From Hyphomonadaceae bacterium (GTDB taxonomy: Bacteria; Pseudomonadota; Alphaproteobacteria; Caulobacterales; Aquidulcibacteraceae): a stretch of DNA of 48,595 nucleotides. The stretch is taken from contig JAKFYF010000046.1 in the NCBI GenBank assembly GCA_021731005.1, positions 1-48,595 of the forward strand. The letters run 5' to 3'. The stretch's first letter is position 1. Each line of letters begins with the position of its first letter. Position numbers and translations under genes: made by a program. This document shows positions 17,798 to 44,043 of the stretch, one piece after another. The notes under the pieces are model-generated. The model saw only the letters and a list, made by a program, of their open reading frames with translations. It did no database searches and had not been told where the DNA came from.

Positions 17798-18051
17798 GAC
17801 ATCCCCTGGATGGCGCCGGGCCACCAGGGAGGCTGATACCTGCAGCGGGTTTAATCCGGAGTTAAGCAACTTCTGCCCGCGCTTTTATTGGGAGTGCGCT
17901 CCGGAGAGGCCATTTTTGCGATCGGCGTTCTTCGGCGAGAACGCGTCATTGCTGCGTGCGCTAAGCGAGAACCTGTGCTCGGGATAAGGTGTGCTTGTGT
18001 GCGACATTGCGCATCTCGGCGCGGTGTGGTGTTGTGCCTTCCGGAGGCGGC

Positions 18052-18658
18052 ATGCGCGGGGCGCGGGCTCTGATCCTGATGGCGATGGGCGCGGCGCTTG
18101 CGGTTGCCGCTGGCGCGCAAACGCCGCTGCCGCGACAGCCCCTGCCGCAACTCACTTTGCCACAAACCAATGTGCAATTGACCGCGCCGACACGGCGCGA
18201 AGGCGCGTTCAGCGTCGGGGGCATGGATTGGCGTTGCAATGGGCTTGTGTGCTCGTCACAGAGCGTGGCTGCGCCTAGTGTGACGGCGTGCCGGGCGCTG
18301 ATGGCGGAGGCGGGACAAGTGGTTTCGTACGCGCGCGCGCGTGGCGTTGACGGCGGCGGATCTGGCGGCGTGCAATCATGCGACGTTGCCAAATCTCACG
18401 CGCGCGCCGCCCGTCGATCCGAATGCGGCGCGCGTCGTCAACACGCCGGAGCTGAACTCTGTCGGCGGCGCGACGAGCGCGCCGGCCGCTCGCGGCGGCG
18501 CTCCGGCGACAGTCGCAACAAGTGAACTGAGTTTTGTGGGCGGTGTGACGTCAACGGCGACGAGCCGGAGCGGCGCGCCGGTGGAAGTCACGACCGACGA
18601 ATTGAGCTTCGTCGGCGGATGCAGAGGTGTGACATGCGTTCCATTATCGCGGCGTTAG
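18052..18658 (+). pseudogene. Secreted repeat protein gene, frameshifted at a CG tract
   Basis: ATG 18052 follows a GGAGG site and begins a signal peptide (RALILMAMGAALAVAAGAQT). Frame 1 is sensible up to VVSYARAR at about 18342, then changes to nonsense. The next frame continues sensibly with VALTAADLAACNHATLPNLT and a tail of two 25-residue repeats plus a partial third (SELSFVGG, DELSFVGG units). The break sits in a 12-base CG run; adding one CG unit restores the frame exactly. The tail overlaps the following gene by 25 bases. Either a real slippage event (possibly reversible) or an assembly error. The function of the repeat protein is unknown. Confidence 0.7.
18329..18342 (+). repeat. CG dinucleotide tract (6 units)
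   Basis: TACGCGCGCGCGCGTGG: six CG units at the point where the two frames of the secreted repeat protein separate. One more unit would join the frames. Confidence 0.8.
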
Positions 18659-19095
18659 CTTTCGGTTTCGCCTGCGCTGGGGCGACGCCATGTATGGCGC
18701 AGGCTACACCGGATTTTGTGTTCAACGTCCCTGTGCGTATCGAAAATGCGCCGCCGCTCAGCGGACGAACGGCGCGGGTGCAATGCAATCTGCGCGCCTA
18801 TTCTCCAGCCGGCGTTTGGATAGCAAGCCCCGCGGGATCTCAGAACATCGAAGTGGGTCCGAGCGGGTATCGCGGCGCGGTTCGCGTTGAGGTGACGCTG
18901 CCGGCGACTGTCCCTCGCTCAGCCGTGCGCGACTGGAGTTGCGACCTGATCATCGCCGTAGTGACGGGTCCGTCCGGCGAGGCCGTCTCGATCTCCGCAG
19001 GGAGCCGTGAGACCCAACTGGCGCGCTACACGTCAACAACCGGACAGGTGGTCGCGTCCCACAATCTGAACGCATATGGCACGTTCCCGCCCTGA
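18634..19095 (+). CDS. Secreted hypothetical beta-rich protein
   Basis: 153 residues from ATG 18634 with signal peptide (SIIAALAFGFACAGATPCMAQ). The mature part reads as an Ig- or transthyretin-like strand series (FVFNVPVRIENAPPLSG, ARVQCNLRAYSP, GAVRVEVTLPATVP, DWSCDLIIAVVTGPSG) with a Cys pair. It overlaps the end of the repeat-protein gene, so both are probably one operon and may work together on the cell surface. No family recognised. Confidence 0.65.
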   Translation: MRSIIAALAFGFACAGATPCMAQATPDFVFNVPVRIENAPPLSGRTARVQCNLRAYSPAGVWIASPAGSQNIEVGPSGYRGAVRVEVTLPATVPRSAVRDWSCDLIIAVVTGPSGEAVSISAGSRETQLARYTSTTGQVVASHNLNAYGTFPP

Positions 19096-21863: not shown

Positions 21864-22480
21864 TTTTTGTAAGAGCATTATTCGCGGTGCTGCTCCTCGC
21901 TGTCCCCGCGATGGCGAATGCGCAACAGGCGCCACCTGCGCCCAATTCGATGCGGCGACAAGCACTTGAAAGCGAGGTCACGCGCTCGCGCGCCATCATC
22001 CAAGGCGGTGCGGTACTCCCGCAACGTCCCGCTGGCTGCACCAGCGCCGAGAGCCGCCAGTTCGACTTTTGGCTGGGCGAGTGGGACGTGTCGCCAAGTC
22101 AGTCGCCGGTCGTCGTCGCAGAGAGCACGATCACCTTGCATGATCAAGGCTGCGTCATTCTTGAGAATTGGCGACCTTTCCGTAATGCGCACGGACACTC
22201 GATCAACAGCTACGATGCGGCAGAAGGCAGATGGCGTCAGACTTGGGCGGACGCGAGCGGGACGAGAACGGAATATGCCGGATCAGTCGACGCAGACGGA
22301 GTGATGCGGCTCGACAATTTGAGCCCCTCGCCGTCAGGCGCTCCGCGGGCAAGACAGCGCATGAACTTTCAGCGTGTTGACGCGAATGCCGTGCGCCAGT
22401 GGGGCGAGACTTTTGATGCCGAGCAGCAGGCTTGGACCACGACGTGGTCGTTCACTTATCGTCGCCGCGGCGCGCAGTAG
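21860..22480 (+). CDS. Secreted DUF1579-like protein
   Basis: 206 residues. I choose ATG 21860 over 21854 because GGAG is then at proper spacing and the start overlaps the upstream stop. Signal peptide FVRALFAVLLLAVPAMANAQ. The motif SRQFDFWLGEWDVSP and a following beta-barrel-like pattern (HDQGCVILENWRPF, GRWRQTWADASG, MNFQRVDANAVRQWGETFD) match the family of secreted DUF1579-type proteins with an FxWLxGxW start. Function of that family is not known. Four bases separate it from the dehalogenase. Confidence 0.75.
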   Translation: MIFVRALFAVLLLAVPAMANAQQAPPAPNSMRRQALESEVTRSRAIIQGGAVLPQRPAGCTSAESRQFDFWLGEWDVSPSQSPVVVAESTITLHDQGCVILENWRPFRNAHGHSINSYDAAEGRWRQTWADASGTRTEYAGSVDADGVMRLDNLSPSPSGAPRARQRMNFQRVDANAVRQWGETFDAEQQAWTTTWSFTYRRRGAQ

Positions 22481-22483
22481 AGC

Positions 22484-23446
22484 ATGTTGACACGTAGAGA
22501 AGCGATGGTCGCGGCGCTCGGCGCGAGCTTTGCGACGTCGTGCGCCAACTCGCCGTCTCCGCAGGGCGCGGCTGAATTTCGCGCGGCGAAGAAATTCGTG
22601 GCGACTGAAAGCGGCCTCCGCATGGCGTATTTCGAGGCGGGCCGGGGCGCGCCGATCGTGTTCTTGCACGGAAACCCCACGTCTTCTTACCTTTGGCGAA
22701 ACGTTATCCCGCATCTCGCGGGTCTCGGTCGGTGCATCGCACCCGACCTCATTGGCATGGGAGATTCCGACAAACTGCCAGATTCAGGTCCCGGCAAATA
22801 CAACTTCTTCGAACATAGTCGCCGCTTGGATGCGTTTTTCGACGCAACGGGCGTTCGCCGGGACGTCACGCTTGTTGTGCATGATTGGGGCGGCCCGCTC
22901 GGCTTTCACTGGGCGATGCGCAATGAAGCGCGGGTCAGAGCGATCGTCTTCATGGAGACGTTCGTTGTGTCGCAGAATGACCACAACACGCCGCCATTTG
23001 CGATGCAGTTCTTTTCGCGCTTTCGCACATCCGAGGCCGAGCTTGATGTTCTTTCGAACAACACTTTCGTGGAGACGGTGCTGCTGCGCCAGTTTCCGAA
23101 CATGTCCGAGGAAGACCGGGCGGAGTACCGTCGCCCCTTCGCGCAATCGGGGGAGGGACGCAGGCCCACACTCGAATGGCCAAGACAAGTACCAATCAAT
23201 GGCGATCCCGCCGATGTTCATGAAGCGACGTTGCGGTTTTTGGGCTTCATGTCGGAAACGCAGATTCCGAAATTGTTCATCCGCGCGGACCCGGGAGCGC
23301 TCATTTTGGGCGGCAGGGAGCGCGTTCCGCGTACATGGCCAAGAGTGACGGAGGCGGTCGTGCACGGTCGTCATTTTGTTCCAGAGGAATCGCCCAATGA
23401 GGTCGGCCGTATCGCCGCCGCTTGGCTCAGCGCGCTCGAGGGATAA
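22484..23446 (+). CDS. Haloalkane dehalogenase-like alpha/beta hydrolase, exported
   Basis: 320 residues. The N terminus looks like an export signal (RREAMVAALGASFATSCANS). The hydrolase core has the haloalkane dehalogenase pattern: HGNPTSSYLWRNVIPHL with halide-binding Asn64, the nucleophile Asp134 in VVHDWGGPLGFHWA with halide-binding Trp135, acid Glu in FMETFV (subfamily II position) and catalytic His297 in GRHFVPEESP. The enzymes hydrolyse carbon-halogen bonds to alcohols. Family members are often named dhaA or linB; which substrate this one takes cannot be read from the sequence. Most characterised members are not exported, so the leader is noteworthy. Confidence 0.87.
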   Translation: MLTRREAMVAALGASFATSCANSPSPQGAAEFRAAKKFVATESGLRMAYFEAGRGAPIVFLHGNPTSSYLWRNVIPHLAGLGRCIAPDLIGMGDSDKLPDSGPGKYNFFEHSRRLDAFFDATGVRRDVTLVVHDWGGPLGFHWAMRNEARVRAIVFMETFVVSQNDHNTPPFAMQFFSRFRTSEAELDVLSNNTFVETVLLRQFPNMSEEDRAEYRRPFAQSGEGRRPTLEWPRQVPINGDPADVHEATLRFLGFMSETQIPKLFIRADPGALILGGRERVPRTWPRVTEAVVHGRHFVPEESPNEVGRIAAAWLSALEG

Positions 23447-23447
23447 C

Positions 23448-24575
23448 ATGATCGCAATGCGCAGCTTCGCCTGTTGCTTGGCGCTCGCGGTCGGCGCTTG
23501 CGCGCAAAGCGGCTCCGATCGCATTCTGGAGCGCGCTGCGTCGCTCCCGCCCGGTCAGACGGAGCCGCTCGAAATCTGGCTCGCCGAGAACCCTGAAAGG
23601 AGCGCTCTACGCGCGGCGGTCTTTGGCGAACTCTGTGACGCGGAGAGCCGTGTTGGCCGCTATCGCGCAGCGGCGGACGCCTGCGCCGCAAAGGCAGATC
23701 TGCTTGGCGAAGACGTCTCAAGCGGGTTGGCGCAATCGATTGCGTTCTGGCGCGCTCTGGCGCCGCTGCCGCCCGTTGAGGTGAGCGGTGAGTTCGACCA
23801 ACCACTGACCTATGGTTGGACGGGCATGGCGGAAGTTGCGGTGGAGGCGGGCGAGACCCTTACCGGCTGGGGCGTCGATTCCGGAGCGGAAGTTTCAGTT
23901 GTTCGTGCGAGTGATGCGGCGCGGTTTGGTATTCGTATGCTTGAGGGTGACCTAGGCGTCTCCGGCTCGACCGCTGGCGTCGCGGTGGGGCGTCTCGGCA
24001 TGATCGACACCATGCGAATTGGCGCTGCCGAAATCAGGAACGTGCCGGTTCTGGTTCTGCCCGACGAGAACCTGACCTTCGAGGGACGGCAAATCCCTCC
24101 GATTCTCGGAATGCCGACGCTCTACCCCTTTGGTTCACTGGCTTTCTTCGATCACGGCGCGCGACTGCGCGCCGGTCCGCTTGACAGCGTAAGCCGGGGG
24201 AGACCGATGATTTGGAACGCCTCCGGGTTCGCAATTGAACTCCAATTTGAGAGCGGCAGTCTCCGCGTTCACCTCGACACCGGCGCAAATCGCACCGCGC
24301 TGGGAGCAGCAGCGCTCGCACTTCTGTCGTCCCAGCAGAGGCGCGCACTGAACCGGCGTACCGTTCGCGTGGCCGGCGTCTCGGGAGCAGAAGATCGAGT
24401 TGTCGCGGAATTGGCCCAGCTTGACGTCGGCGTTGCGGGTGCGGTTTGTCGACTTCAAAGCGTCTCGATTGGCGACGACGACGCCGGCGCGCAGGGCCGT
24501 GCCGGAATTGATCTCATCAAAGCATGCGACACGATCGTATTGGATTTTTCGACGATGACCTTTAGCGCGCGTTAA
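23448..24575 (+). CDS. Retropepsin-like aspartic protease lipoprotein, copy A
   Basis: 375 residues from ATG 23448, with GAGGG at good spacing. Lipobox LAVGAC gives a lipid-anchored Cys. There are two aspartyl-protease half-domains: GWGVDSGAEVSVV (Asp-Ser-Gly) and VHLDTGANRTALG (Asp-Thr-Gly), each followed by hydrophobic-hydrophobic-Gly patterns (PPILGMPTL; GRAGIDLIKA). A retropepsin-type protein with both lobes in one chain and anchored in the periplasm is likely. It follows the dehalogenase closely and is related in layout to the protein at 29203-30495. Confidence 0.8.
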   Translation: MIAMRSFACCLALAVGACAQSGSDRILERAASLPPGQTEPLEIWLAENPERSALRAAVFGELCDAESRVGRYRAAADACAAKADLLGEDVSSGLAQSIAFWRALAPLPPVEVSGEFDQPLTYGWTGMAEVAVEAGETLTGWGVDSGAEVSVVRASDAARFGIRMLEGDLGVSGSTAGVAVGRLGMIDTMRIGAAEIRNVPVLVLPDENLTFEGRQIPPILGMPTLYPFGSLAFFDHGARLRAGPLDSVSRGRPMIWNASGFAIELQFESGSLRVHLDTGANRTALGAAALALLSSQQRRALNRRTVRVAGVSGAEDRVVAELAQLDVGVAGAVCRLQSVSIGDDDAGAQGRAGIDLIKACDTIVLDFSTMTFSAR

Positions 24576-24656
24576 TGCCGCCAGTGCGCTGCCATCCCCC
24601 CTCGATGCTGCGTAGATGAATCGATTGTTGGGCGCGTTTCTCGGTTGGAGGTCCGC

Positions 24657-25070
24657 TTGCGTAACATAGATGTGGCGACAGCGTTCGTGAGCGCGATCAA
24701 CGCGCACGACGTGGGGCAGATTGCGAACCTCGCTTCGGAGGATCATGAATTCATCGACAGTTCAGGCCGATCAATTTGCGGCCGCGAAGCTGTTTGCGCG
24801 GCCTGGCGGGGATATTTTGCGTTCTGCCCAGATTATTGGGTGAAGGCCGACGAAGTCATCGGCGGCGCCAATTGTGTTGCGCTTTTCGGCGCGGCGGGTG
24901 GAACCATCATCGAGGCAGGCTGCCGGTACGCGGCGAATGAATGGCGCATTCCCGCAGCATGGCGGGCGGTGATCAGGCAGGACCTGATGGAGTGTTGGCA
25001 AGTCTATGCCGACATAAAGCCGGTTTACGACATCGTGGACCGGCTGCAACCGAGCGGTCGAGATGGGTGA
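24657..25070 (+). CDS. NTF2/SnoaL-like protein
   Basis: 137 residues if TTG 24657 is used; GGAGG lies 5 bases upstream of it, better than the ORF-track start. The pattern VATAFVSAINAHDVGQIANLASEDHEFIDSSG followed by GREAVCAAWRGYFAFCPDYWV is the standard cone-shaped NTF2-like fold for small-molecule binding or isomerisation. The rest contains several Cys. No specific function. Confidence 0.75.
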   Translation: MRNIDVATAFVSAINAHDVGQIANLASEDHEFIDSSGRSICGREAVCAAWRGYFAFCPDYWVKADEVIGGANCVALFGAAGGTIIEAGCRYAANEWRIPAAWRAVIRQDLMECWQVYADIKPVYDIVDRLQPSGRDG

Positions 25071-25113
25071 CGGGATCGAAGTCTAGCTCGGAAAATCGTT
25101 CGAGGATGCGTGG

Positions 25114-25527
25114 ATGCGATTCTTGTTTGCGTCGTTGTGCGCATATGCGGCGATGGCCGTGTGTGCAGTTTTCCTGTTTACCATCGTATTGGCGGAGCAG
25201 TTTGCTCCACTGGTTGGCTTGTTTCGATCCGCTGAAGCTCAGCAGCAGACCGCAATTTGGGCTCTTGCAGCACAATGCTTACGCGCCTTTGTCTTCGCGG
25301 GAATAGCCGTCGTGCTGCATGGGAGGAGGCGACTTCCCGTTACCACCGGCGCGACCTATGGATTTCTTGCCGGGCTGTTTGTTGGCACCTTCCATGTCGC
25401 CAACACTGCATCGCTGCCGTTGCCGTTCGAGACGGGCGTCGCGTGGGTGGCGTTCGATACTGGGCTGCAAGTGCTCGGCGGAACAGTCTTCGCAGCCGTA
25501 TATCGCCCGGTCGACGAAGCCCAATAA
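25114..25527 (+). CDS. Four-helix integral membrane protein
   Basis: 137 residues with four hydrophobic helices (about 4-28, 46-66, 77-97, 105-128). No known motif. A GAGG site precedes ATG 25114. It lies in the run of rightward genes, 43 bases after the NTF2-like gene. Function unknown. Confidence 0.65.
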   Translation: MRFLFASLCAYAAMAVCAVFLFTIVLAEQFAPLVGLFRSAEAQQQTAIWALAAQCLRAFVFAGIAVVLHGRRRLPVTTGATYGFLAGLFVGTFHVANTASLPLPFETGVAWVAFDTGLQVLGGTVFAAVYRPVDEAQ

Positions 25528-25585
25528 CTTCAAAATGAACGTGTCTGGAACTCGTAGTCCGTCAAGGCGTGCAAGGGAGGCCTCA

Positions 25586-26401
25586 ATGAAGCGTGGAACA
25601 TTTATTGCCGCGCTGGTCGCTGGGTGCACGACACCCTTATCGACGGATAGAGAAACCCACGCGGTGCGGGTGATGGGAACGCGCATTGCGTTTCAAGGAC
25701 GCCGGGGACGATCGCCAACGATCGTGTTTGAATCCGGGCTCGGGGATGGATTTGAGGTGTGGCGCGGCGTTATCGACCAGTTGGGACCCGATGCCGCTTA
25801 CTTCGCCTACAGCCGCCCTGGCTATGGAGACAGCGAGAGCCTCCAACCTCCAGCCACCGCGCGCAATGCAGGGCAAGCAGCGACGCTGCTCGACGTTGTT
25901 CTTCATGCCGCCAGCGTTCGCCCACCTTATGTGCTGGTGGGGCATTCGCTGGGCGGACTTTATATCGCACAGTTTGCGGCGCTCTATCCTGAACAAGTCG
26001 CCGGGCTTGTGTTTGTCGATGGCCGTCCGCCAACGTTTCGCGCGGCGTGCGATGCGCGCGGAATACGCTTCTGCAGCACCCTCGGCAGCGCGCCGCCGCC
26101 GCCGACCTGGCCTGCGCACATTGTCGCTGAAGTGCAAGGCATTGGCGTCTCGGAGGAAGCTGCACCCGCCATGACCGACATCGGCGCCATTCCGGCCACG
26201 ATCATCACCTCAACGAACGGCTGGCAGGGCGAGCAAGGCGACGAAGGGTTCGCGCTTTGGCTTGAGAGCCAGGAGAGTTTTGCTCAAGGCTTCAGGCGCC
26301 ATCGCCTCGTGCGCGCGGAAGGGGCTGGACACTATGTCCAACGCGATCGGCCCGCTTTGGTGGCGCGGGAAATAGAGGCGTTGGCCGCGCGGATCCGTTA
26401 G
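25586..26401 (+). CDS. Alpha/beta hydrolase lipoprotein
   Basis: 271 residues from ATG 25586, with GGGAGG upstream; the longer ORF frame is antisense-like in the previous gene. Lipobox ALVAGC suggests a lipid-anchored protein. Core motifs are PTIVFESGLGDGFEVW (oxyanion region), nucleophile Ser121 in LVGHSLGGLYIAQFAALYP, and the catalytic His in GAGHYVQRDRP. The lid region is short and holds a polyproline run. Substrate unknown, probably an ester. Confidence 0.85.
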   Translation: MKRGTFIAALVAGCTTPLSTDRETHAVRVMGTRIAFQGRRGRSPTIVFESGLGDGFEVWRGVIDQLGPDAAYFAYSRPGYGDSESLQPPATARNAGQAATLLDVVLHAASVRPPYVLVGHSLGGLYIAQFAALYPEQVAGLVFVDGRPPTFRAACDARGIRFCSTLGSAPPPPTWPAHIVAEVQGIGVSEEAAPAMTDIGAIPATIITSTNGWQGEQGDEGFALWLESQESFAQGFRRHRLVRAEGAGHYVQRDRPALVAREIEALAARIR

Positions 26402-26561
26402 AAGGAGCGAGTTCCGAATCCGCTGCGGCACAGCTCAGACCTCGCGTCGGGCCGATCAGGCTTATGCTCGGGCGTGCGGCCACTGACGAACGCAATTTCG
26501 CACTTTCAGCACAGCTCATCGCTCATGCGGCGCGAAGATGACGATGCCTGGAGGTGGGCAA

Positions 26562-28053
26562 ATGGGCGACGGGATATCGACGAGGGATAGCGATAGCACA
26601 CGATCGGCGGCGCGATGCGCCTCGATCATCAGTGCAGGGTTGGCGCGTAACGCAGTCGTGTGGCTCGCCTTCCTTGCCGTGGCTGGGTGCGTCAGTGCTG
26701 AACTTGCGGCGCAGGATCGGGTCTTGCTGGCATCGTCCTCGCAACCGACCTATCAGATTGGCGAGCGAAGGCCCGAGCTCTTGCGGGCGGGTCCCGTGGG
26801 CGATCCTTTTGTCGTCGAGGCGCCGATCGCTGAGGGGCGGCGCGAGAATGTTTGTTTCCGCGCCGCCGGCGACGAGGAGTGTTTTCCGTTGGGTGTGAGC
26901 GAGGCCGTGAGCCTTCGGATTGAGCAGGGCGGCACACACAGAAATGTACGCGTCGTCGGCGTGCTGCATGTTCCGGCGGCGCGCTTTTCTCCGGAGTATC
27001 AGGCTGCGAACCGTGGTCGTTTCCAGGTTCTACTCCCGGAGGTGTATGAGCTGGTAAACATCGGGATCGCCCTCACCGACTACGCCGCCGCGAATCCGGG
27101 ATTGGTGGCGACCGATACTGACTATTATTCACGTGCCTGGGCGCACTTTGAACCTTACCGGGGACACCCATTCGTCCAGGCGCTTAGCCGGGGGATGCAG
27201 GAGGACGTCTTCTGGTATTTCAGATACAAGATGAACGCGTTTGCGTTTGAATTCGATGCCGAGGGGCAGATCGTTCGCAGTGTGATTTATGATCGCACCG
27301 GCTTCTACGATGAGCAAACCAACGACCTCTTGCCCTTGCTGACGATGTTGCAGGATTTCGCGCAGGATACCGATTTCCGCTCATTTTACCAACAGAACCG
27401 TCCATTCTACGATGAGCAAGTCGCGTTCTTCGAGACTGACGCGGGATGTCATGACGATGTGGACGTGGCTCATGGAGCGCTTTCCCAACGTTCGAGCTTA
27501 CGATGGCGTCAAGGTTGTCTTTTCGCCGTTGGTTGGGCCAAACCAATCCGTGACGTGGATCGAAGAAGACGGCTATCGCGAGCTTCAGCCGCACATCAAT
27601 TTCCCCTACACGCAGCGAGCGGAACTGAGTGCGCAAGCTGCCGCGATCGCGCGTTCGGAGATATTGTTCACTGAGGTGAACCACGGGTTCATCAATCCGA
27701 CTGCGGACCAATATCTTGCCGACATCGAAGCGGCGCTTGGAGAGCGAAGCATTTGGGCTGACGATTCGAAGTCCGCATCCAATTACCCCAACGCCCTTTC
27801 GCTCTTCCTGGAATACATGAACTGGGGTCTGATCAGTCTTTATGAGCATGACAGAATGGTCGAGCCAGATCGAGGAGTGTCGCGCGCGCGCGTTGTGCGC
27901 GTCATGGTGGAAAGGCGGGGGTTCAAGCAGTTTGCAGCGTTCGACTCCTTTCTTGTCGATCTCTACGCGAACCGAGCCGTCGGAGAAGCGATTGCAGATC
28001 TCTATCCAAGAATTATTGCCTGGTTCGCGACGCAGTCGGTTGGAGCAGAGTAG
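26562..28053 (+). pseudogene. DUF4932-like lipoprotein gene with a frameshift
   Basis: Start chosen at ATG 26562, which has GGAGG at 7 bases. A lipoprotein signal (VVWLAFLAVAGC) follows. The first frame is meaningful through FYDEQVAFFETDAG at about 27447; the sequel VMTMWTWLMERFPNVRAYDG continues in the +1 frame, to FATQSVGAE at 28053. Removing one base near 27441-27450 joins the two. The joined protein (about 496 residues) resembles the DUF4932 family, with the block LFTEVNHGFINP carrying an ExxH pair that may bind metal. Whether the break is real or a sequencing error cannot be told. Confidence 0.7.
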
Positions 28054-28101
28054 CGACGTGCATGCGGTCGGGTGGGTGAACGTCAAGAGGGGGCATTTTG
28101 C

Positions 28102-28449
28102 ATGAACTGGATCTGGCGCGCCGGCTTGGCGCATATCCTCATAGGATCAGCGATCTTGTTCGGGACGCTGCATCCGCTCCGCGACATGCTCGAGCCCGCT
28201 GACCTTCATCTTGCGATCGTCGGCTCCGCGCTGCAGGCCATGCAGGGCTTGGGTTTGTTGATCGTGTCACAGTTGTCGAAAACAAGATGGCCCGCAGCGC
28301 TCATCGCCGTAGGCGCGGCCTGCTACGCCTCGATGCTGTACGTCATCATCTTCACCGGGCTGCATCCGTTCGACCCACTCGTGCCGGTCGGCGGCGCGGT
28401 GATGCTCGCAGGCTGGATCATGCTGCTGGTGACGCCAAGCCCCAAATAA
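28102..28449 (+). CDS. DUF423-like four-helix membrane protein
   Basis: 115 residues from ATG 28102, AGAGGGGG upstream. Four hydrophobic helices with small loops (LAHILIGSAILFGTL, AIVGSALQAMQGLGLLIV, PAALIAVGAACYASMLYVI, GGAVMLAGWIMLLVT). The HxAIVGSALQAMQGL and helix spacing resemble the DUF423 (YgdD-like) family; that match is moderate. Function unknown. Last gene of the rightward run. Confidence 0.65.
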   Translation: MNWIWRAGLAHILIGSAILFGTLHPLRDMLEPADLHLAIVGSALQAMQGLGLLIVSQLSKTRWPAALIAVGAACYASMLYVIIFTGLHPFDPLVPVGGAVMLAGWIMLLVTPSPK

Positions 28450-28566
28450 GCTCGCGCTCGCGGCGGTTTCGGCTCAAGCCGGCGGGGGCGTTCGCCGATC
28501 CCAATTGGGGTGATCGGCCTGTCGGCGGGGGCTCAGCTGATGCCATCGCGCCAAACCGGGCGGCCA

Positions 28567-29133
28567 CTAATGCGTGGTGCGCGGTGGGCGAGGGGCTGGC
28601 GCGAGTGCAACGGTGAATTCGAGTGCTTTCCCCCTGCCAGATCGCGCTTGCGCGCGTTCCAGCAAAGCGTCCAACTCGGCGTTGAACTGAATTAGCGCTT
28701 TGCGGTCGAGGCGCATCTGAATGCGACGGACGGACGTGTTTCGCATTTGTCCGTCCGTGACGGCCGCGTCGGATGAAAGCGCGGCGGCGACCGAACGGGC
28801 TGCCGCGGTGAGAAAACGCCTCGCCACTTGGGCAAGTGCAGCGCGACCAGACGCGGTCCGTGACGCTGCACGCGCGGAGAGTTGCTCCGAGATCAGTCCG
28901 TAGAGTTTTTCCGGTCTGCGAGCGCTTGGCCGTGTTGCAACGAGGCGCACCAAGCCTACGCGTTCAAGCTGGTCAATGTGGTGGTAGACGCCGCTGACAG
29001 GCTGGCCGATATGAGCCGCCATTTCGCGGGCCGAAAGTCGCCCGTGTTGGGCGAGTGCGCCGACGATCCTCGTTCTTGCTGTGGAAGCCATGACGCGCAG
29101 TTGCGCCGCCGAGAGTTCTAGTGGAGGAGCCAT
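28567..29133 (-). CDS. ArsR-like winged-helix regulator
   Basis: 188 residues from ATG 29133 (earlier in-frame ATGs at 29157 and 29181 run into the divergent promoter). The N-terminal winged helix is clear: VMASTARTRIVGALAQHGRLSAREMAAHIGQPVSGVYHHIDQLERVGLVRLV. The rest is a helical, Ala/Arg-rich domain (AALAQVARRFLTAAARSVAAALS, RLDRKALIQFNAELDALLERA), the layout of ArsR-like regulators with an effector or dimer domain. It is divergent from the retropepsin-like lipoprotein gene with an AT-rich spacer, so it probably controls that gene. Confidence 0.8.
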   Translation of the reverse strand: MAPPLELSAAQLRVMASTARTRIVGALAQHGRLSAREMAAHIGQPVSGVYHHIDQLERVGLVRLVATRPSARRPEKLYGLISEQLSARAASRTASGRAALAQVARRFLTAAARSVAAALSSDAAVTDGQMRNTSVRRIQMRLDRKALIQFNAELDALLERAQARSGRGKALEFTVALAPAPRPPRTTH

Positions 29134-29150
29134 GATGGATAATTCTAGGA

Positions 29151-29170
29151 TTGACATATTATTGAAATAT
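29151..29170. promoter_or_regulatory. AT-rich promoter/operator between ArsR-like gene and lipoprotein gene
   Basis: TTGACA at 29151-29156 is a consensus -35 box for the rightward gene; ATATT and AATAT (29156-29160 and 29166-29170) form a small inverted repeat overlapping it. The region is unusually A/T-rich for this window. The -10 box is not clear. Confidence 0.4.
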
Positions 29171-29202
29171 TGCAGAGTCATCCTCTGCTAGGAGGGTGTC
29201 AC

Positions 29203-30495
29203 ATGAAATTCACTGGGTTGGTTGCGGGTGCGGCGGTTTTGTCCGTTCTGGTGTCGGGGTGTGTGAGCGGCGCCTCACTCGAGAGTGAGACCACAGCGGC
29301 AGCGACAACAGGCGCGGCCTGGGAGGCCTGGCGTGCTGGCAATGCAACGCAGAGCGGGGCGCTTGGCGAGCGCCTTTTCGATAATCTTGCGACAACCAAC
29401 GAAGGCCGCCATGTCGCTGCTTTATCTGCGCATGTGCGCGGCGACTACAATGCCGCAATCGTTCACTACGAGGCCATCGGCCAAGACTATCCGCGCCGGC
29501 GTGAATTACGCGGTGCGATCTTTGAGTCTTATCTTCACGCTGACCGGCCGACCGATGCGCTCCGCTTCGCAACCGAAACCGAAATGTCGGCCAACGCACG
29601 AGTGCGCGCGCAAGCGCGCGTGGACAATCCTATCACCGTGAACATTCCCGGCGTGGTCGGTCTTGGATTTGAGAACGATGCGTTGACGCCCTTTATGCCC
29701 GGCGTCGAGGGTCGCTTGAACGGTCAGAGCGCGGTGTTCCGCTTCGACACTGGCGGTACATTCGTCGCCATGTCTCCAGCACTTGCGACGCGGTACAACG
29801 TGCGCTCTGCGCAATGCGCGCAGGGATTTGCCAACTTACAGGCAACCCAAGTGTGTCAAGGCGTCGCTGACATCGACTTGGGGCCCGTGCGTGTCACCAA
29901 CGCGCCAGTGGCGGTTGTGTCTTCGCTGCCGGCGGAGCAGCTCGGCGTTGAACTTGGTCCAGTGTTGGGGACCAACTTCTTGCAACTTTTTCTCGCCACG
30001 ATTGACGCCCCCAACGAACGGCTCCTTCTTTCGCCGCGCGGGAACGCTGCGGCGAACGGCCAGCACATGGCGCTCGTCGGGGGAACGCGCACCGAGATCC
30101 CGTTTTTGTTGTGGTCGGATCATTTCATCATCGCCCGGGGTGGCGCAGGATCCAGGCGCGATCTTAATTTCTTCGTCGATTCCGGGCTCGTGGCGGTTGC
30201 CGACGACGGTGTGCAGGCGGGTTTATTGCTGCCACACTCCCAAGCCTCGGTGTGGGCCGGCGTTTCAGATCCGTCTGCCGCCGGTGCGATAGTGGCGTTG
30301 GCGCCGGCCATTTGGCTGGGCGAGGCTTCGCAGATTGGACAACGCGCCATGGTGCTTCCAGACGCGGCTTGGGGGTCCTTCGGAACGTTTGGCGGGATCG
30401 ACGTGCACGGGCTGATTTCCTACGGGTTCCTCAAGCACTACGCGTGGACCTTGGATTTCGAGCGACAAGTGATCGTGCTTTCGTCCAGTGAGTGA
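29203..30495 (+). CDS. Retropepsin-like aspartic protease lipoprotein, copy B
   Basis: 430 residues from ATG 29203, with AGGAGGG upstream. Lipobox LVSGC. The N-terminal region (about 25-130) is helical and TPR-like (RLFDNLATTNEGRHVAALSAHVRGDYNAAIVHYEAIGQDYPRR contains such helices). The C-terminal part holds two aspartyl-protease-like half sites, FRFDTGGTFVAM and FFVDSGLVAVAD, with GPVLGTNFL and HGLISYGFL as flap-end motifs. It is related in plan to the protein at 23448. Likely periplasmic, lipid-anchored. Probably under control of the divergent ArsR-like regulator. Confidence 0.78.
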   Translation: MKFTGLVAGAAVLSVLVSGCVSGASLESETTAAATTGAAWEAWRAGNATQSGALGERLFDNLATTNEGRHVAALSAHVRGDYNAAIVHYEAIGQDYPRRRELRGAIFESYLHADRPTDALRFATETEMSANARVRAQARVDNPITVNIPGVVGLGFENDALTPFMPGVEGRLNGQSAVFRFDTGGTFVAMSPALATRYNVRSAQCAQGFANLQATQVCQGVADIDLGPVRVTNAPVAVVSSLPAEQLGVELGPVLGTNFLQLFLATIDAPNERLLLSPRGNAAANGQHMALVGGTRTEIPFLLWSDHFIIARGGAGSRRDLNFFVDSGLVAVADDGVQAGLLLPHSQASVWAGVSDPSAAGAIVALAPAIWLGEASQIGQRAMVLPDAAWGSFGTFGGIDVHGLISYGFLKHYAWTLDFERQVIVLSSSE

Positions 30496-42010: not shown

Positions 42011-43624
42011 TCAGGCGGAGGCCTGCGGCTTCCAGTTCCAGGGCAGAAGTTCGGCTAGCCGCGATGCTGGCAGAGCGGCGATGCGGGCGAGCACGTCGGC
42101 GAGCCAGGCCTGCGGATCGACGTCATTGAGTTTGGCGGTTTGCAGCAGCGTGTAGATTGCCGCCGCGCGCTCGCCGCCGCGATCTGAGCCGGCGAAGGTC
42201 CAGTTGCGCCGCCCCACGGCCAGCGGGCGGATCATTCTTTCCGCCGCGTTGTTGCTGAGGCAGGCCCGCCCATCGTCGAGGAAGCGCGTGAAGGCAGGCC
42301 AGCGTTTGAGCATGTAATCCATGGCTTTAGCGATGGCGCTTTTTGCCGACACGCGCGCCCGCGCGGCAATCATCCAGGCATGGAGCGCCTCGACCAGCGG
42401 CTTGATCCGCTCGTGGCGCACCGCGCGGCGTTGTTCCGCTGGCAGACCATTGATCTCGCGCTCGATGTCGAAGATGGCGTCGATTTGCTTCACCGCCTCG
42501 ACGGCGATCGGCGAGAGCGTTATGCGCGCATCGCGCGCCAAAGACCTTTTCTTGCGGGCGACATCGGCCAGCTCGAAAAATTTGCGCCGGCCATGAGCCC
42601 AGCATGCGGCCTCAATGATGGCGTTAGGTTTTCGCTCTGGCGCATAAAGCGCGGCGAATCCGGCGAAGGCGTCGGCCTGCATCAAGCCGGTCCAATCGGC
42701 CAAATGCGATCGGGGGTGGGCGCCGCCGCGATCGGGCGAATAATAATAGATCGCCGCCGCCGGGTCCTTGCCGCCAAACGGTTTGTCGTCGCGCACATAG
42801 GTCCATAATCGGCCGGTGCGGGTCTTGCCTTTCGCCAGCACCGGGACCGGCGTGTCATCAGCGTGGATGCGTTCGGCTGCGAAGACGTGATCGCGGATCA
42901 GCTGCGTCAGCGGTTCAAGCGCGGCAGCGCACGCGCCCACCCAATCGGCCATAGTCGACACTTCGATCGCCACGCCCTCGTTCGCGAAAGCCTCACTCTG
43001 GCGGTTGAGCGGCAAATGCAAATCGTATTTGCCGGCCAGGATCATGGCGAGCAGGCTGGGTCCAGCCCGACCGCGTGCAATCACATGGAAAGGCGCTGGC
43101 GGCTGCATGATCTTTTCGCACGCCCGGCAGCTCCAGCGCTCGCGCACGGTTTGCCGCACGAAGAATTTGCGTGGGATGATCTCCAAAGTCTCGGTAATAT
43201 CTTCGCCAAGCTTGCAGAGCTTTTTCGAGCCGCAGCACGGGCATGATGTCGGCGATGCAATCACCATCCGCTCGCGCGGCAGATGCGCTGGCAGCGGCCC
43301 GCGCTTGGGCTGCCGACGCGACCCCGCAGGCTGGATCGGCGCGCCTTGCGCGGCGGCGGCCTGCGTCTCGGCCGCCATACTATTTTGCACGATGTCGCCT
43401 TCAATGTCTTCCAGCGACAATTGCAGCTGATCGATCAGATGGGCGCGGCGCTCCGAAGATTGACCGAATTGGGCGCGTTGCAGGCGCAGGAGCTCAATCT
43501 GAAGATTGGCGAGGAGCGCTTCCGCGCCCTTGTGGGCGGCGGCCATTGCCGCAATCATCGCCCGGCTTTCCAGCACCAGCGCCTTCAGCGCATCGATGTC
43601 ATCAGGGAGATCGCCGGCCTGCAT
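42011..43624 (-). CDS. tnpC: IS66 transposase TnpC
   Basis: 537 residues. An N-terminal helical leucine-rich region (DDIDALKALVLESRAMIAAMAAAHKG, LLANLQIELLRLQRAQFGQSSE), a zinc-finger region (SCPCCGSKKLCKLGED, WSCRACEKI), and the DDE integrase-like IS66 core (HADDTPVPVLAKGKTRTGRLW, EAACWAHGRRKFFELAD, NNAAERMIRPLAVGRRNWTFAGSDRGG). It ends with the small C-terminal IS66 domain (LLQTAKLNDVDPQAWLADVLARI). It executes strand transfer for the element. Full length for the family. Confidence 0.96.
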   Translation of the reverse strand: MQAGDLPDDIDALKALVLESRAMIAAMAAAHKGAEALLANLQIELLRLQRAQFGQSSERRAHLIDQLQLSLEDIEGDIVQNSMAAETQAAAAQGAPIQPAGSRRQPKRGPLPAHLPRERMVIASPTSCPCCGSKKLCKLGEDITETLEIIPRKFFVRQTVRERWSCRACEKIMQPPAPFHVIARGRAGPSLLAMILAGKYDLHLPLNRQSEAFANEGVAIEVSTMADWVGACAAALEPLTQLIRDHVFAAERIHADDTPVPVLAKGKTRTGRLWTYVRDDKPFGGKDPAAAIYYYSPDRGGAHPRSHLADWTGLMQADAFAGFAALYAPERKPNAIIEAACWAHGRRKFFELADVARKKRSLARDARITLSPIAVEAVKQIDAIFDIEREINGLPAEQRRAVRHERIKPLVEALHAWMIAARARVSAKSAIAKAMDYMLKRWPAFTRFLDDGRACLSNNAAERMIRPLAVGRRNWTFAGSDRGGERAAAIYTLLQTAKLNDVDPQAWLADVLARIAALPASRLAELLPWNWKPQASA

Positions 43625-43695
43625 CGCAAGCGATTAAACCATGCTTTGCGGCTTCTGAGGCGCCCCCGCGTACAAGCTGATTCAATCGGTCGCAC

Positions 43696-44043
43696 TTAGC
43701 CGGCGGCTTCTGGCCGCCAGGTTTCGCGCGGCGCCCTCCAGTCGAGCGCCTCCAGCAACATCGACAATTGCGCCGGACTGATCATGGCGCTGCCCTCGGT
43801 CGCATTCGGCCATTGAAAGCGCCCCTTCTCCAGGCGCTTGGAGAACAGGCAAGCGCCCTGACCGTCATGCCAAATCGCTTTCAAAAGATCGCCGCGGCGG
43901 CCGCGAAAAATGAACACATGGCCGCTGTGGGGATCGAGCTTGAGCGTCTCCTGGATTTGCAACGCAAGCCCATCCATGCCGCGGCGCATGTCGGTGCGCC
44001 CCAGCGCCAACCAGATCTTCGTGCCCGCTGGAAACTGCATCAT
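43696..44043 (-). CDS. tnpB: IS66 accessory protein TnpB
   Basis: 115 residues, the ORF2 (Orf2_IS66) type: KIWLALGRTDMRRGMDGLALQIQ, SGHVFIFRGRRGDLLKAIWHDGQGACLFSKRLEKGRF, ISPAQLSMLLEALDWR. Its start overlaps the tnpA stop (ATGA) and 71 bases separate it from tnpC. Required for transposition in the family, precise role not known. Confidence 0.95.
   Translation of the reverse strand: MMQFPAGTKIWLALGRTDMRRGMDGLALQIQETLKLDPHSGHVFIFRGRRGDLLKAIWHDGQGACLFSKRLEKGRFQWPNATEGSAMISPAQLSMLLEALDWRAPRETWRPEAAG

Follow-up and report, generated by a model that had tools for sequence, protein, structure and literature searches.

A reading frame broken at a short CG tract in a secreted-repeat gene of a Hyphomonadaceae bacterium

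The reading frame of a secreted-repeat gene is broken at positions 18330-18341 of the stretch of DNA analysed here (the window, 48,595 nucleotides long), at a tract of six CG units. The best account of this loss of frame, which the spacing of conserved residues supports, would be that one CG unit is missing, (CG)7 having become (CG)6. According to the proposed course of events, a CC_3452-family gene with a tail of 25-residue repeats would have headed an accessory cassette of two genes; replication slippage would then recently have removed one CG, cutting the product to 157 residues with a wrong tail and thereby costing it the end of the CC_3452 domain, including the final conserved cysteine, along with the entire repeat tail. 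We infer that seven units are ancestral, that the event is both real and recent, that the protein is secreted and that its function has been lost. The reading as a whole, of a recent and ordinary one-unit slippage loss that inactivated a dispensable accessory gene as opposed to an evolved reversible switch, is given an even chance of being right. The features of the locus are as follows.

18043..18047, plus strand: SD-like GGAGG, read from the sequence, 4 nt 5' of the ATG at 18052.
18052..18525, plus strand: frame 1 as it stands, 157 aa, with a signal peptide, the larger N-terminal part of the CC_3452-family domain and an out-of-frame tail.
18330..18341, plus strand: the (CG)6 tract, site of the frame change, from the sequence and a test of unit number in silico.
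18341..18658, plus strand: frame 2, with the rest of the CC_3452 domain (VALTAADLAACN), the repeat tail and the stop TAG at 18656-18658.
18449..18469, plus strand: repeat motif 1, ELNSVGG, from the sequence.
18524..18544, plus strand: repeat motif 2, ELSFVGG, from the sequence.
18599..18619, plus strand: repeat motif 3, ELSFVGG, from the sequence.
18620..18622, plus strand: a TGC codon, a possible stop loss, where the homologue in genome G018 has the stop TAA (DNA compared by eye).
18634..19095, plus strand: downstream partner gene, 153 aa with a signal peptide, which also adjoins repeat-bearing CC_3452 genes in other genomes.

Frame 1 starts at the ATG at 18052 with what is, by eye, a typical signal peptide (MRGARALILMAMGAALAVAAGAQ), passes through the tract, whose letters at 18330-18341 are CGCGCGCGCGCG, and stops at the TGA at 18523-18525. 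Frame 2 is already open on the 5' side of the tract and continues to its TAG, and it contains the three repeat motifs at a spacing of exactly 75 nt, or 25 codons. With codon usage trained on this genome, frame 1 is preferred 5' of the tract and frame 2 is preferred 3' of it: the mean log-odds are +0.018 for frame 1 before the tract and -0.010 for frame 2 after it, compared with -0.21 to -0.61 for the other frames and +0.012 for the downstream gene, so that both halves of the broken gene are at the level of a neighboring gene. The initial annotation had placed the meeting point of the two frames in this 12-base CG tract, and the coordinates, the open frames, the codon usage and the 75-nt spacing of the motifs all agree with it. 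An open stretch of 104 codons has a chance probability of 0.21, and its openness is weak evidence for frame 2; it is homology that makes the join of the two frames convincing.

When the two frames are joined, with X at the uncertain residues, the resulting protein matches the NCBIfam model NF047636 (the CC_3452 family) over residues 16-110 with 46.1-50.1 bits, above the curated cut-off of 40 bits. Frame 1 alone reaches 33.1 bits, below that cut-off, and its match ends at the tract, at position 77 of the 92 in the profile. The conserved cysteine pattern and its spacing to the CN pair are found in the seven-unit form, and only across the joint. The window gene thus appears to belong to the CC_3452 family and to encode a small protein whose secretion is predicted from the signal peptide, and since no intact frame covers the whole of the CC_3452 domain it is filed as a broken member of the family. 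With the family, known from Caulobacter crescentus CC_3452, it shares the signal peptide, the W-x-C...C...C...CN pattern and the length of the domain; it differs in having a C-terminal tail of 25-residue repeats, a downstream partner and a broken frame. In C. crescentus, CC_3452 changes about 2.5-fold when iron is limiting, and likewise in a fur mutant (PMC3751524). Genes of this family, mostly without repeats, occur in 29 of 30 genomes of the genus, and among 14 control genomes the family is found only in Caulobacter vibrioides, which hints at a Caulobacter-like group without establishing it. A search of this genome found no second intact copy elsewhere, the next matches being repeat-less paralogues.

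How many CG units the intact gene may have carried was considered by trying three to eight units in silico, and a through-frame arises only with seven units (202 aa) or four (200 aa). The two forms differ in the distance to the last conserved cysteine, where the count begins directly behind the C..[LMFV] motif and ends at the cysteine of the final CN. All repeat-bearing homologues show a distance of 25 residues, and the 39 sequences listed all lie in the range 25-28; in the window gene the distance is 25 residues with seven units and 23 with four. The four-unit form was accordingly rejected as the ancestral state, as its spacing falls outside the range of the homologues, and the loss of one CG is the best account because seven units give the homologues' spacing of 25. 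This account is drawn from length, and a close sister sequence of the gene was not found. The proposal in the initial annotation that one added CG joins the frames into a single protein with 25-residue repeats is borne out by the family match across the joint, by an intact homologue and by the spacing of 25.

The intact frame, which the initial annotation had thought to seek in orthologues, is present together with the repeats in two genomes of the same genus. G018 encodes an intact homologue of 203 aa with three ELSFVG motifs, which is followed by a relative, 50% identical, of the next gene in the window, and G020 encodes three more intact repeat-bearing homologues, each followed by a partner gene. 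The downstream partner protein has no family match in Pfam or NCBIfam; its predicted structure is all-beta at low confidence (mean pLDDT 63) and has no significant match in the PDB. Partner genes are found in 3 of 30 genomes of the genus, and in the order as a whole 7 of the 398 genomes proved by a profile search to carry partner-like genes. The repeat-bearing form of the CC_3452 gene, along with its partner, is rare and accessory, and a two-protein secreted function at the cell surface would be a guess. At the matching end of the G018 gene there is a stop codon; with TGC at 18620-18622, frame 2 of the window runs 12 codons further and into the downstream gene. The broken frame might possibly also have entailed a loss of translational coupling to that gene (ATG 18634).

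A two-gene cassette recurs at other loci, and comprises a CC_3452-domain protein with a variable tail, usually of V.T..L(S/T)..G repeats, and a beta-rich secreted protein (DF.L.VPV.I..LP). The loci are listed below.

Window, 18052-19095, plus strand: cassette.
L054, 4394-5480, minus strand: cassette.
L055, 3959-5009, minus strand: cassette.
L056, 3989-5133: cassette.
L057, 3993-5074: cassette.
L026, 303-2019, minus strand: cassette.
L092, 833-1956: cassette.

In G047 (L026, 811-2019, minus strand) the tail of the CC_3452 protein seems to hold a partner-like segment, FIDVPLNFRALPQAVVSLTISC, and may represent a fusion, and in G109 (L093) a repeat protein lacking an evident CC_3452 domain lies beside a similar partner.

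The frame of the window gene is disrupted relative to its intact homologues, as in a pseudogene. Codon usage is normal in both halves, and the one additional lesion would be the possible stop loss at 18620; because neither half carries further frame damage the event is either recent or not real. The scant further decay counts against plain inactivation, being what a switchable gene or an assembly error would leave as well. A slippage loss is nonetheless ranked first, a place that it holds with middling confidence, ahead of an error in the consensus and of phase variation.

An error in the consensus or in sequencing, or a mixture of strains in the draft assembly, such that the true sequence would contain seven units and the gene would be whole, is a serious rival and the least unlikely of the alternatives. 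The assembly, G000, is fragmented into 373 contigs and is 91% complete with 4.8% contamination, and the absence of other damage in the two halves is as this explanation would have it. There is, moreover, a second frame-breaking difference of a single base in the window. A stretch of 8.6 kb (21922-30483) is 96.7% identical to the corresponding DNA of another species of the genus (G009; C2, L168-L169), while the matching flanks are about 70-79% identical, a pattern suggestive of recent homologous transfer from one species to another. Within this stretch lies a DUF4932 gene (26538-28053) whose frame is split in the window by one extra G at about 27445 (GGG); G009 has GG there and an intact, single 504-codon frame. 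A single T difference at 25365 (window 25114-25527) gives a short membrane-protein-like frame in the window and a fused frame of 428 codons in G009; this break is probably on the G009 side, as the short frame in the window looks natural. Frame-changing indels thus occur in the window away from CG tracts, be they true mutations or errors in the sequence, and those at 27445 and 25365 therefore give more weight both to a plain pseudogene and to a consensus error. Against an error, an indel in a 12-bp dinucleotide tract is atypical for short reads, if short reads were used, and none of the approximately 45 other tracts of CG or GC units, 12-16 bp long, breaks a same-strand frame in this assembly. 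What a crude scan of codon usage for other breaks picked up was mostly the normal overlap of genes; apart from 27443 in the window, the only candidate with a switch point far from both ends of the overlap was near 2461 in L161, which is away from the CG tract of that locus at 1536-1549. Elsewhere in the window, an IS66 TnpB-like gene (43699-44043, minus strand) lies beside a 537-codon frame (42011-43624, minus strand), and the region 42011-44043 is probably an IS66-type insertion element.

Reversible phase variation, which the initial annotation had favored, would have CG units gained and lost within the population, turning the repeat protein on and off and perhaps also affecting downstream translation. 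Several features are in keeping with it: the tract falls within the sequence that codes for a repeat protein predicted to be secreted, exactly at the frame joint, the intact state is one unit away, loss of units from a CG tract does occur in one alphaproteobacterium (PMC5829832), and six units reaches the threshold that is usual in dinucleotide searches, as applied in a phasome survey (PMC6321876). The authors of that survey also point out that mutation may be too slow for switching in tracts close to the cut-off. By the criteria for phase-variable SSRs, the (CG)6 tract lies in a coding region and reaches the length threshold (dinucleotide, 6 units), while its length does not go beyond composition and it is not kept in the homologue (G018 only). 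The window contains two (CG)6 tracts where about 0.7-1.2 are expected, and the genome contains 80 where the reversed control contains 97; the tract was therefore rejected as statistically exceptional, with counts at chance level in window and genome alike. The intact gene of G018 lacks a CG tract at the corresponding codons (one homologue, its DNA read by eye), and the other (CG)6 in the window, at 27881-27892, has the same length in G009, within a stretch that is about 97% identical. Among 46 tracts of CG or GC units, each of 12-16 bases, that were examined in this genome, the coding frame mostly continues unchanged across the tract; the remainder show a change of strand, often with a weak coding signal on one side, and a same-strand change of frame was found at none of the approximately 45 others. 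Hence tracts of equal or greater length keep their frames, and the DUF4932 gene, broken at a point away from the CG tract, indicates that broken genes here need no switch. With an ordinary tract length, no tract in G018 and an unchanged (CG)6 in G009, phase variation is not supported, and we consider it unlikely, placing it after a consensus error. The fuller form of the idea, in which slippage between (CG)6 and (CG)7 would turn the repeat-bearing gene of a secreted two-gene cassette on and off in an alphaproteobacterium from the environment, is doubtful and stands a step lower again.

Recoding, in which ribosomes would slip by -2 on the alternating GCG/CGC codons and so translate the six-unit sequence into the full-length protein, is very improbable: on the sequence, a -2 shift would allow GCG to pair anew with GCG, and CGT with CGC, and the spacing would come to exactly 25 residues, but GC-rich codons are poor slippery sites, the downstream RNA structure is not unusual (z -0.6 to -1.3) and the frame of the homologue in G018 is simply open. 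The presence of two separate genes is likewise barely credible, for although both frames have possible start codons, the CC_3452 domain would be cut mid-way and intact homologues join both parts; we take the locus to be one broken gene because the family match spans the joint and because intact homologues exist in G018 and G020.

A frameshift at a short repeat is in itself ordinary. Were the tract to vary within a clone, it would be a rare example of phase variation driven by repeats among free-living alphaproteobacteria, in which few such loci have been described. Of more lasting value may be the two-gene cassette that recurs across genomes, the second gene of which lacks a family description in Pfam or NCBIfam.

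Among the known repeat systems, the hifA/hifB tract of Haemophilus influenzae, (TA)9-11, is one in which the number of dinucleotide units decides expression and for which variation has been documented (PMC2651432), and the mod gene of Mycoplasma mycoides, with (AG)12, is of the phase-variable type in which the number of dinucleotide repeat units likewise decides expression (PMC3498834). The hif and mod tracts have at least nine units, whereas the tract in the window has six, is at chance level and is known from one assembly. A different comparison is offered by copA of Rhodobacter sphaeroides, where four suppressor isolates had independently lost one CG from a (CG)5 tract (PMC5829832). Those suppressors arose repeatedly under laboratory selection, whereas the window presents one allele, from one assembly, of an unrelated gene. 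The two cases are nevertheless alike in the loss of one CG, as proposed here for the window gene, from a short tract within a coding region of a GC-rich alphaproteobacterium, with a frameshift as the outcome, and the copA precedent thus allows the mutation to be explained without requiring a switch.
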